In this document: positions 51,460 to 54,936 of the stretch, in pieces
How the letters are laid out: every line of letters begins with the position of its first letter
Position numbering within the stretch: position 1 is the first letter of the stretch
Assembly: GCA_030271625.1 (NCBI GenBank)
Contig: JARXKN010000001.1
Coordinates: 124,001-188,000 of the forward strand
DNA from: Patescibacteria group bacterium
Lineage (GTDB): Bacteria; Patescibacteriota; Saccharimonadia; Saccharimonadales; UBA4665
Direction: 5' to 3'
Length of the DNA: 64,000 nucleotides
Made by a program: the position numbers and the translations under genes
The notes under the pieces: model-generated
Databases searched by the model: none
What the model was told of the DNA's origin: nothing
Seen by the model: only the letters and a program-made list of their open reading frames with translations

Positions 51460-51924
51460 ATGAACGAAAAACAAACAGCTAGCGAAACCACGCTGCGGCC
51501 AACTAAAAAACAGCGCGAACTACTGCAGTATATTCAGCAGTTTATTGGTGAGCATGGCTATAGCCCGAGCTACCGCGAGATTATGAACGGCCTGCAGTAC
51601 ACCTCGGTAGCGACGGTGGCGCTCCACGTTAGTAATCTTATTAAACGGGGTCATCTGCGCAAGCGCGATCGTTCAGCCCGCTCACTAGAAGTGGTTGATA
51701 ACCCGGAACCAGCGGCGCTGATGACTAATCAGGTTGCGCCCGGCGAAGAAAAATGGCTGGTTGAAAAGGTGGAGCATGCCTTCCGCCAGGTCGAGCAGGC
51801 CGGCGACGCCGAGGGACTCGATAATTTGTATGTCTTGGTTGGCGCTTTAAAAGTTTTGGGCTTGGAAGGCGCTGCCCAAAGTTTTGTAGCCCGCCTGAGT
51901 GCCTTAAAATCTGCGGCTGAATAA
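51460..51924 (+). CDS. LexA-like DNA-binding protein lacking the S24 protease domain
   Basis: 154 residues. The winged helix-turn-helix (about 14-78) closely follows the LexA N-terminal domain: TKKQRELLQYIQQFIGEHGYSPSYREI (short forms QRELLQYIQQFI, GYSPSYREI), TSVATVALHVSNLIKRGHL and ARSLEVV. The rest (about 85-154) is a helical segment unlike the S24 peptidase. It has no Ser-Lys pair or Ala-Gly cleavage site, so RecA-stimulated self-cleavage is not possible. It may be a constitutive or otherwise sensed repressor. CATAAT at 51446-51451 gives a nearly leaderless mRNA. Confidence 0.85.
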   Translation: MNEKQTASETTLRPTKKQRELLQYIQQFIGEHGYSPSYREIMNGLQYTSVATVALHVSNLIKRGHLRKRDRSARSLEVVDNPEPAALMTNQVAPGEEKWLVEKVEHAFRQVEQAGDAEGLDNLYVLVGALKVLGLEGAAQSFVARLSALKSAAE

Positions 51925-52608: not shown

Positions 52609-52647
52609 CCTGCAGTAAATACTACTATATCTAGCGTACCGTGCTAG

Positions 52648-52656
52648 TGCTAAACT
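52648..52656 (+). promoter_or_regulatory. Extended -10 promoter of the riboswitch transcript
   Basis: TGCTAAACT; the predicted start is about 52663, just before the conserved riboswitch core. Confidence 0.5.
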
Positions 52657-52662
52657 ACTAGA

Positions 52663-52841
52663 ACTTAACCAAAAACTAAGTAATTAACAACAGAAATAGC
52701 TGGAATCCTGTGCAAATCAGGAACTGTGCCGCAACGGTAAATAAACCCTACGTTTAAAGTCCGATACAGCTTACATAAGTCTCTCGAGCAAGAGCGCGCC
52801 ACTTTTGGCCCGCCTTTTCCACGAGTGGAGGGTATCCAATT
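52663..52841 (+). promoter_or_regulatory. Cobalamin (adenosylcobalamin-type) riboswitch
   Basis: The conserved core is present in order. CCTG (52707-52710) and CAGG (52718-52721) flank GTGCAAATC (52710-52718). Then CTGTGCCGCAACGGTAA (52724-52740) is the nearly invariant loop segment, and AGTCCGATACAGC (52758-52770) is the B12-box-like 3' part. Downstream, TTTTCCA (52815-52821) can pair with TGGAGGG (52826-52832), which holds the Shine-Dalgarno, a plausible translational off-switch. Known family: cobalamin binding usually represses the downstream gene. A covariance-model search was not possible here. Confidence 0.88.
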
Positions 52842-54296
52842 ATGGCCGTGGCAGCCGAACAATTAGCGCAGTTTTATTATCCCGTGGAGCAGTCGCCCTT
52901 TTTAGCAGCGGTGCGCACCGAAGCCCGAGCTGAAGCCTATGACATTATTGAGCAGCGTCGTGAACAGCTGCGTAACGCCGATTATGCTGCTGTACCGTTA
53001 CCAGTTGATGCCTTAAGCAGCGCCCAAGCCGTAGTAGAAGCCCAAATATTTTATGGCCCCGCTAGCCCAGAGGCCGCCGACCGCTATCACGGACTGCAGC
53101 TCGATTGCCTGCGCTTATTAGCCGAAGCTACTCGTAAAAATACCTACGAATACTTTCCGCCGCTCCAGCAAAAATTAGACGCCGCTACCGGCGACTACCA
53201 ATCATACGGCTTTTCGATTATGGCTATGACTGAGGCCGGCTTGAGCCCGATTGCCGAACCAGAGGAGTTAGAACGGCGCGTTAATGAACGTGTTGAAGAA
53301 GTAACCTACCGCGCCATTGGCCAGCTGGCATTGCTAGGACAGTCATTGCAGCCTGAACAAACTAGCGCCGTTACCCACCCGCAGCGCCGACGGATTAGAA
53401 CCATTTCGGAGTGTCCCGACTGGGCAATTGAAGCCCAAGCGCGCAGTCCCAAAGCCGGTACTGGTGGCTACGTGCCGGAAATTGAGAAGTTTATGGTTCG
53501 AGACGTAAGCTTTGACCCGGTAACTGGTGATCGCTATGAAGAGCAGGTGGGTCTACCCGGCTTGCTTATTACTGGCGACATTATCCGAACGGTCCTGCAA
53601 GCCAAAGGCGTCGCTAAGGCCGAGTCACTTTCCAAGACCGAACTACAGGCCTTGCAACTCGAAGCCGATGATAGCTTGTTAGAGTTTGTGGCCTTACTTG
53701 ACGCTACCGCCAGCCACGAGGCCGAACAACCAGTGTTTATGGGCGAACCGGCCGTAGCGGATCCTGATTACCGCAGTCTTCCGGCTGCTGCCGCTGAGCG
53801 CCAAACCCAGCTGGAAAGCTTGGCTACCGAACTAGCCAACGACTTACTGGGCCTGGAGCGATTGGCCACTGATCGCTGGGCGGCCACGGCAATTGTCGAA
53901 GCCCGCGTTAAGGCCATCTTATTTAGCTTAGCCGAGGCTGACAACTCACGAGCGGCGACAATGTTTGATGCTGCTACCGCTCGCGGCTTACAAGAGGTTT
54001 CGTGGCTGCGGTCACTTGGCGAAGCCGATTTAGCCGCCGACCGTCTGCAACAAGTTGAAACCGCGGCCCCCAGCGTTAGTTACTGTGGTGCTGGCAGCTG
54101 TGGCCTGGAAAAAGCTGATGTTACCGGCGGCCAAGCCGATACCATGAAAGAAATGGGCCTCGACAGCAGCTCGAGCCTAAAAGACACTGAACGACGTTGC
54201 CCACGCTGTAGTAAAAAAGAGATTGTCTACGATTTGAAGAAAAAGCTAAAAGCCTGCACCGGTTGTAAATCTACCACCGGCTTCGGCTCCAAGTAA
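52842..54296 (+). CDS. Riboswitch-controlled protein with C-terminal zinc ribbon, function unknown
   Basis: 484 residues, not recognised. No signal peptide or membrane helix; helical and Ala/Glu/Leu-rich, with Asp/Glu-rich surfaces. About 190-235 is a more conserved-looking block (RRIRTISECPDWAIEAQA, GGYVPEIEKFMVRDV, GDRYEEQVGLPGLLI). The C-terminus has YCGAGSCGLE (about 409-418) and a zinc ribbon CPRC.KKEIVYDLKKKLKACTGCK (short forms CPRC and CTGC, about 450-475). GGAGGG is 9 bases before the ATG and lies in the riboswitch 3' hairpin. Control by cobalamin suggests a role in B12 use, uptake, storage or a B12-independent replacement enzyme, none of which can be shown from sequence. Confidence 0.82.
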   Translation: MAVAAEQLAQFYYPVEQSPFLAAVRTEARAEAYDIIEQRREQLRNADYAAVPLPVDALSSAQAVVEAQIFYGPASPEAADRYHGLQLDCLRLLAEATRKNTYEYFPPLQQKLDAATGDYQSYGFSIMAMTEAGLSPIAEPEELERRVNERVEEVTYRAIGQLALLGQSLQPEQTSAVTHPQRRRIRTISECPDWAIEAQARSPKAGTGGYVPEIEKFMVRDVSFDPVTGDRYEEQVGLPGLLITGDIIRTVLQAKGVAKAESLSKTELQALQLEADDSLLEFVALLDATASHEAEQPVFMGEPAVADPDYRSLPAAAAERQTQLESLATELANDLLGLERLATDRWAATAIVEARVKAILFSLAEADNSRAATMFDAATARGLQEVSWLRSLGEADLAADRLQQVETAAPSVSYCGAGSCGLEKADVTGGQADTMKEMGLDSSSSLKDTERRCPRCSKKEIVYDLKKKLKACTGCKSTTGFGSK

Positions 54297-54333: not shown

Positions 54334-54339
54334 TAGATG

Positions 54340-54936
54340 ATGACTACGCAACGGATTGGAATTTACGCCGGCACCTTTGACCCGATTCACGCCGGGCATA
54401 TTGCCTTTGCCTTGCAAGCGCTAGAGCAGGCCAAACTCGACAAGATTTATTTTTTACCGGAACGTCGACCGCGCCACAAACCAAGCGTCGAACACTTTGC
54501 GCACCGGGTGGCCATGATTAAACAAGCTAGCTTGCCGTATCAGCAGTTCTACGTGCTGGAATCGGTAGAGGTGTCGTTTACTATTAAGCGCACGCTGCCG
54601 ATGCTTCAGCAGAAGTTTAAACATGCCCAGTTAGTCTTTTTATTTGGCTCCGATGCGGTGGCTGGCTTGCCCGACTGGCCTTATGCCAAACAGCTTTTAA
54701 CGACTAGTGAACTGGTGATTGCCGCCCGCCAAGGCGACGATACCACCCAACTGCAGACCGCGATTGCCAGCTGGCCCCACCAACCACAGGCCGCCGTTAT
54801 GCTGACCAGCTATGCGCCGTCAGTTTCATCGAGTTTAGTGCGCGCCGCCTTGCGGGCTCGACAACCAGCTGCCGGGCTACTGCAGAGCGTCGCTCGTTAC
54901 AGCGATCACCATTGGCTTTACGTCTCTGTTAGCTAG
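54340..54936 (+). CDS. nadD: Nicotinate-nucleotide adenylyltransferase
   Basis: 198 residues. Joins nicotinate mononucleotide with ATP in NAD synthesis. The nucleotidyltransferase signature is GIYAGTFDPIHAGH (T/HxGH), with PERRPRHKPSVEH and LFGSDAVAGLPDWP downstream. The C-terminal ISSSLVR-type motif is VSSSLVRAAL. The ATG at 54340 is preferred to 54337 because of the promoter spacing. It may be the only NAD gene in view. Confidence 0.93.
   Translation: MTTQRIGIYAGTFDPIHAGHIAFALQALEQAKLDKIYFLPERRPRHKPSVEHFAHRVAMIKQASLPYQQFYVLESVEVSFTIKRTLPMLQQKFKHAQLVFLFGSDAVAGLPDWPYAKQLLTTSELVIAARQGDDTTQLQTAIASWPHQPQAAVMLTSYAPSVSSSLVRAALRARQPAAGLLQSVARYSDHHWLYVSVS

Follow-up and report, generated by a model that had tools for sequence, protein, structure and literature searches.

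We identified a short cobalamin riboswitch in front of the gene for an orphan protein of 484 residues in a Saccharibacteria genome, and this combination of RNA and gene recurs across the bacterial order to which the organism belongs. Overall, the explanation towards which we lean is that the protein is cytosolic, is induced by shortage of vitamin B12 and serves the axis of the class II ribonucleotide reductase, NrdJ; the ligand, the OFF polarity of the switch, control by NrdR and any biochemical activity are inferred. The safest statement is a regulatory one, namely that the gene belongs to a regulon, inferred to be induced by B12 shortage, which safeguards deoxynucleotide synthesis in NrdJ-reliant Saccharibacteria. 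The window, by which we mean the whole 64-kb stretch of DNA that was analysed, is part of a 1.15-Mb genome in 23 contigs (G000:C6:124001-188000).

Cobalamin riboswitch and expression platform

The leader of the orphan gene contains the following elements:

52622..52637, + strand: NrdR-box-like element CTACTATATCTAGCGT, matching 12 of the 16 positions of the NrdR consensus
52648..52656, + strand: TGCTAAACT, an extended -10 promoter element that homologues conserve as GTGCTAYACTACTA
52699..52770, + strand: cobalamin (AdoCbl-II-like) riboswitch aptamer, supported by an independent covariance model, covariation and sub-threshold matches to Rfam RF01689 and RF00174
52781..52794, + strand: P13 hairpin CTCT-CGAGCA-AGAG, with a covarying stem and a conserved loop
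52812..52833, + strand: hairpin sequestering the Shine-Dalgarno (SD) sequence, a predicted fold with comparative support

All three core motifs of the riboswitch are present and in order, with GTGCAAATC at 52710-52718, GCCGCAACGGTAA at 52728-52740 and AGTCCGATACAGC at 52758-52770. Rfam at its gathering thresholds gave no match in the window; the element scores 28.6 bits with the AdoCbl-II model RF01689 (52681-52777; gathering threshold 36.5 bits; E 8e-5 for 321 nt) and 24.2 bits with RF00174 (gathering threshold 31.5 bits; E 1.8e-4 for the genome). A gathering threshold is a search cut-off and no biochemical criterion, and it is passed by orthologous elements (L004, L006, L007, L008, L011, L015, L057, L060, L063, L075 and L076). 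Because the Rfam thresholds yielded nothing in the window, we built a covariance model of our own from 23 elements of other genomes, with the window element left out as a control. This model found a single match in the 64 kb, at 52694-52798 (97 bits, E 4.4e-24). When 27 such elements were aligned on the named structure, standard pairs filled 98.4% of the alignment cells, 11 of the 16 base pairs showed changes on both sides, and the covariation score was reached by none of 500 shuffles.

The aptamer in the window is real and conserved across relatives, although ligand binding is inferred from sequence alone, and the RNA is an additional member of an already known kind of riboswitch. The first-pass annotation had assigned the conserved core to the cobalamin riboswitch family by its order and spacing, which held on the strength of the motifs, the independent model and the covariation. 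Its start at 52663 lies in the upstream leader, the aptamer proper beginning at 52699, and the Infernal search with RF00174 that it proposed leaves the window element below threshold, as given above. A degenerate or accidental riboswitch before a gene unrelated to B12 might be argued from the scores under both gathering thresholds, but this alternative is all but excluded by the independent model (E 4e-24), the covariation and the conservation across the order.

Two kinds of insertion were seen in P6 of related riboswitches. A palindromic insert, TTGACA...TGTCAA, recurs at L024, L067, L068, L069, L070 and L150, a pattern that would suit a small repeat element able to tolerate or target this site. 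The second recurrent insert is longer and structured (AAGGTTTTTCTCATCGGACC...GGTCC.GCTCTTTTTC) and is found in riboswitches of different families, at L113, L114, L117 and L148 and, inverted, at L066.

Loop L5 reads GTGCCGC, followed by A or T, in all of 103 non-identical elements, and L13 has the sequence CG[N]GCA in 98 of them, where N is A in 90, C in 4, U in 3 and G in 1. Since UGCCG and CG[N]GCA are complementary and only the bulge position varies, we infer, again from sequence alone, that UGCCG of L5 would kiss CG.GCA of L13 with one L13 base bulged. A bulge in the kissing loop is likewise known from the env8 riboswitch (PMC10653944). Further downstream, the whole SD (GGAGGG, 52827-52832) is paired within the predicted hairpin, and in at least 69 of 98 relatives an upstream hairpin likewise takes up the SD. 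The fold of the window hairpin, taken as a single sequence, is no stronger than that of shuffles (z about 0), and the support for the expression platform is therefore comparative; its conservation is shown by sequence. The expectation that a downstream pairing hides the SD of the next gene thus held in the form of a predicted hairpin, at 52812-52833. At L062, L063 and L064, the first codons of the ORF contain P13 with its invariant CGAGCA loop, and coding sequence thus also acts as expression platform.

According to the published mechanism, ligand binding stabilises the kissing loop and thereby promotes P13 and the hairpin at the ribosome-binding site (PMC10653944), and we infer OFF polarity by applying this mechanism to the window leader. 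With B12 bound, L5 (UGCCG) would kiss L13 (CG-A-GCA), P13 would be stabilised and the downstream hairpin would bury the SD. Plentiful AdoCbl would in this way keep the orphan gene silent, and the protein would be made when B12 is scarce. We regard the element as a putative AdoCbl-sensing OFF switch, for which both ligand identity and polarity are inferred and binding or expression data are lacking.

The promoters of the homologues share AAATACTAYATNTAGYGT followed by the extended -10 element, upstream of the aptamer. The position of the NrdR-like box is conserved among them, and 65% of 96 homologous promoters score at least 12/16 against the NrdR consensus, compared with 3% of shuffles. In the genome studied here, the window box is the only perfect match to the family-derived pattern. 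NrdR is reported to require two boxes (PMC12051234); the window promoter has one strong box, and a candidate second box at 30-33 bp is weak. In the same genome, the promoter of an nrdH-like gene for a glutaredoxin carries two near-consensus NrdR boxes in tandem at a distance of 32 bp (L124:1499-1546; G000:C6 about 561943-561990), where they were located with the pattern derived from the orphan family’s promoters, and the nrdRJ promoters of this genome contain pairs of similar boxes. Control of the orphan gene by NrdR is plausible and not shown: it remains a possibility inferred from sequence, with a weak second box.

The orphan protein family

The gene that follows the riboswitch, and its conserved neighbours, are located as follows:

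51460..51924, + strand: conserved upstream neighbour, a LexA-type DNA-binding protein that lacks the peptidase domain (context only)
52842..54296, + strand: 484-aa orphan protein with a C-terminal zinc ribbon; an ORF without family or fold match
54084..54086, + strand: Cys415 (YCGAGSCG), conserved in 98-99% of members
54198..54266, + strand: zinc-ribbon cysteines C453, C456, C472 and C475, conserved
54337..54936, + strand: nadD, conserved downstream neighbour (context only)

A search with the single sequence found the family in 11 of 99 relatives, and profile searches found it first in 73 and later in 99 of 393 genomes from the order. The sporadic distribution suggested by the first count was wrong: divergence had hidden members, and the profile and riboswitch searches show that the family is widespread. 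Among 380 genomes drawn from the phylum, no full-length homologue was found outside the same order. The orphan protein represents a Saccharibacteria family that is widespread in its order.

Linkage between riboswitch and gene is shown by sequence. Two of 71 homologous loci are cut by contig ends; a riboswitch lies directly upstream of the family gene in 67 of the 69 with readable upstream DNA. At L098 the riboswitch is at the head of the operon rather than directly before the family gene, and at L099 (G286) the family gene has no riboswitch. All 20 remoter homologues, including a subfamily of ~400 aa, are preceded by a riboswitch. Searched with the riboswitch model, 117 of 139 relatives gave a match, nearly always in one copy, and where a genome had seemed to lack the protein, the ORFs downstream of the riboswitch are mostly divergent family members. 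A figure of 105 of 112 for loci downstream of a riboswitch is biased upward, because these loci were mostly fetched through the family itself. The first-pass annotation had named homologues without the riboswitch, and membership of the gene in a known non-B12 family, as grounds for refutation; the reverse of the former was found, nearly every homologue having a riboswitch, and no known family was found for the gene. At L204/L174 of G094, the ORF behind a riboswitch is ~560 aa long and has no profile link to the family.

The usual position of the family gene is between the LexA-type gene and nadD. The winged-helix LexA-type protein without LexA peptidase (51460-51924) adjoins the locus in most genomes. 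Mean identity in the same pairs of genomes is 38% for the orphan family, compared with 46% for NadD and 63% for the LexA-like neighbour, showing that the family evolves fast, and faster than its gene neighbours.

The length of 484 residues and the C-terminal CPRC/CTGC ribbon noted at first pass were confirmed, and so was the statement that the protein is not a recognisable B12 transporter, synthesis enzyme or ribonucleotide reductase, as no family or fold was matched. Pfam, NCBIfam and PHROG contain no family for the 484-aa protein, Pfam searches with 62 relatives gave no family and only scattered weak zinc-ribbon matches, and no homologue was found in the phage and viral collections searched. 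AlphaFold models were obtained for the window protein (pLDDT 84.9) and, with 63 sequences as input, for a remote relative (pLDDT 89.5). Neither of these two confident models gave a significant Foldseek match to the PDB or to viral models. A sequence search of the PDB returned zinc ribbons and otherwise only the S component of D-ornithine aminomutase at E 0.31, a weak match that is probably due to chance. Family and fold appear to be undescribed in the libraries and open-access papers searched.

The protein has no transmembrane or signal segment and is predicted on that ground to be soluble. Tested as a B12 transporter (BtuCDF, ECF S component or transcobalamin-like), it showed no export signal, transmembrane helices or known domain. 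Within the family, E95, G301 and Y310 are invariant or nearly so, and D287, E149 and C415 are also conserved. The C-terminus ends in -AA in 13 of 105 members, compared with 11 of 495 background ORFs. A resemblance between the end of the window protein (CTGCKSTTGF) and the C-terminus of NrdJ (CTSCGSTTGCS) is taken to be chance, as homologues lack it.

Two rival explanations bear on these properties. The protein could be a regulator or replication brake, a zinc-ribbon nucleic-acid binder that slows replication or reprograms transcription when B12, and hence dNTPs, are short. Its highly variable C-terminal ribbons resemble nucleic-acid-binding ribbons, it is linked to a LexA-type DNA-binding gene, and the -AA ending may be a proteolysis signal. 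However, the ribbon is a minor part of the protein, the invariant residues are in the core, and no DNA-binding domain was recognised, which makes this role unlikely. Alternatively, the protein could be a host-directed factor that exits the cell and draws on the host bacterium for B12 or nucleotides. Saccharibacteria are obligately host-dependent, which speaks for such a role, as does the faster evolution of the family relative to its neighbours. Yet there is no signal peptide or transmembrane segment, and no link to secretion genes was seen; we consider this alternative very unlikely.

B12 dependence of ribonucleotide reduction

Two class II reductases that depend on B12 (NrdJ; 1373 and 1343 bits to NF005122), both behind nrdR (L041:4824-8107 and L042:4451-7958), are encoded in the same genome, as is the adenosyltransferase CobA (G000:C15:4615-5151). 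CobA is present in 29 of 30 genomes, including that of the window, and a PduO-type adenosyltransferase in none of the 30. NrdJ dependence is shown by sequence; that these Saccharibacteria depend on B12 for their deoxynucleotide supply is inferred from gene content. The supply would rest on AdoCbl-dependent NrdJ, with CobA adenosylating salvaged cobalamin. The presence of two NrdJ and CobA supports the earlier suggestion of a B12-dependent partner, and the class II dependence supports its range of salvage, B12-dependent partner or B12 sparing, within which the biochemical role is inferred. The two separate nrdR-nrdJ loci found here compare with a single class II reductase in nearly all relatives. 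In another genome (G072:C5:369446-370919) the class II reductase gene reads as two fragments, with a TAA in frame and a change of reading frame, which an assembly error, frameshift or insertion would explain.

Two identities for the orphan protein were considered. That of a replacement adenosyltransferase was rejected, as the protein lacks a PF02572 or PF01923 domain and a true CobA is encoded elsewhere in 29 of the 30 genomes. That of a reductase subunit is not supported: hhalign gave probabilities of 5% to NrdJ, from the zinc-ribbon cysteines only, and 0.1% to R2, Pfam gave no hit for ribonucleotide reductase alpha or beta homology in the window protein, and Foldseek matched neither confident model to a ten-stranded barrel or ferritin-like fold in the PDB.

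The class I subunit R2 is present in 68 of the 393 genomes of the order. A riboswitch was found in 3 of 39 R2-positive compared with 117 of 140 R2-negative genomes (Fisher p 1e-18, uncorrected for kinship). This exclusion of class I, which is shown by sequence, is partly phylogenetic, as most R2-positive genomes come from one family. It also holds inside that family, the one with the most class I reductase, where 0 of 32 R2-positive and 3 of 8 R2-negative genomes have a riboswitch (p 0.006). The R2-positive genome G286 has kept the family gene without its riboswitch, which it has lost. Two of the three R2-positive genomes with a riboswitch, G032 and G198, have an additional copy of it at the head of the class I nrdAB operon, and the orphan gene is retained beside the class I reductase.

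The riboswitch also heads DUF4430 genes (in G005, G070, G185, G016 and G033), which are accompanied by genes for membrane proteins of DUF6580 or for prenyltransferase-toroid proteins. DUF4430 resembles the C-terminal part of transcobalamin (PMC1796856, PMC4350170). Genes of the DUF4430/DUF6580 type share one operon with the orphan family in G016 and G033 (L196, L098), and in G185 uptake-type genes occupy the place of the orphan gene despite NrdJ-dependent relatives. The riboswitch-controlled pairs of DUF4430 and prenyltransferase-toroid genes at L192 and L195 resemble a split bacterial transcobalamin.

Proposed role and comparison with known systems

We hypothesize that the orphan is a soluble zinc-ribbon protein of the B12/ribonucleotide-reductase regulon, most likely cytoplasmic, which would keep NrdJ working at low B12. 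Its task may be capture, delivery or recycling of the cofactor, or protection of the enzyme. Two families of functional explanation remain, because the company of the gene includes both B12 acquisition (the operons) and B12-free reduction (nrdAB).

In the second family, the protein could be a B12-sparing enzyme that provides a B12-independent route to deoxynucleotides, as a class I stand-in induced at low AdoCbl in the manner of Streptomyces nrdABS. This is possible: the riboswitch also heads nrdAB in G032 and G198, the riboswitch and class I R2 are nearly exclusive, the promoter has an NrdR-box-like element, and the invariant acidic, Tyr and Cys residues suggest catalysis, as inferred from their conservation. 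Against it, no profile relation to NrdJ (beyond the ribbon cysteines) or to R2 was found, the strands are too few for the ten-stranded reductase barrel, no fold in the PDB matches, and the same two genomes keep the gene alongside a class I reductase. Cofactor handling or NrdJ maintenance is favoured over the B12-free route because of this lack of relation to reductases and the retention of the gene. What counts against the favoured reading is the absence of a family or fold match, and hence of a biochemical clue, together with the exceptions in G185, G032 and G198.

A bolder reading is that this order-wide family, with a fold not seen before, contributes a new component, catalytic or cofactor-handling, to the synthesis of DNA precursors, jointly under a B12 riboswitch and NrdR. 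It would then constitute either a B12-free deoxynucleotide route or the first partner dedicated to maintaining the cofactor of a class II reductase; here the balance tips slightly to the negative. It is likely that the pair of riboswitch and gene is core to coping with B12 shortage in most B12-dependent members of the order.

An order-wide B12 switch before one gene places that gene in B12 physiology even though its sequence is uninformative. It gives a handle on how host-dependent, NrdJ-reliant Saccharibacteria manage a vitamin obtained from others, and makes a family without recognised fold or function experimentally approachable. In the open-access literature searched, no paper brings cobalamin riboswitches together with Saccharibacteria, or links these bacteria to ribonucleotide reductase and vitamin B12.

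The CobA/CobO/BtuR adenosyltransferase (PF02572) resembles the orphan protein in being B12-related, cytosolic and present in the same cells. The DUF4430 (PF14478) and DUF6580 (PF20221) genes have the same riboswitch and, in G016 and G033, a common operon with the orphan family, but their products are exported or membrane proteins, whereas the orphan family is soluble, unrelated in sequence and equipped with a zinc ribbon. In Streptomyces, the class Ia operon nrdABS is under a B12 riboswitch and NrdR, and is needed when the class II enzyme is without AdoCbl. The logic is alike here, with a B12 riboswitch and a putative NrdR box, and in G032 and G198 the riboswitch is on nrdAB itself; unlike in Streptomyces, the protein controlled in the window is no reductase subunit by profile or fold.

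With the AdoCbl-II and Cobalamin riboswitches (RF01689 and RF00174, clan CL00101), the window RNA has in common the P3-P6 core, a T-loop-like L4, AGUCCGA in J6/3, P13 with the predicted L5-L13 kissing loop and the predicted SD-burying hairpin. It departs from their norm in its short form and in its scores under the Rfam cut-offs. The group to which it belongs further differs from known cobalamin riboswitches in that L13 keeps to CG[N]GCA, with a single bulge, and, at L062-L064, in that P13 lies within the ORF.
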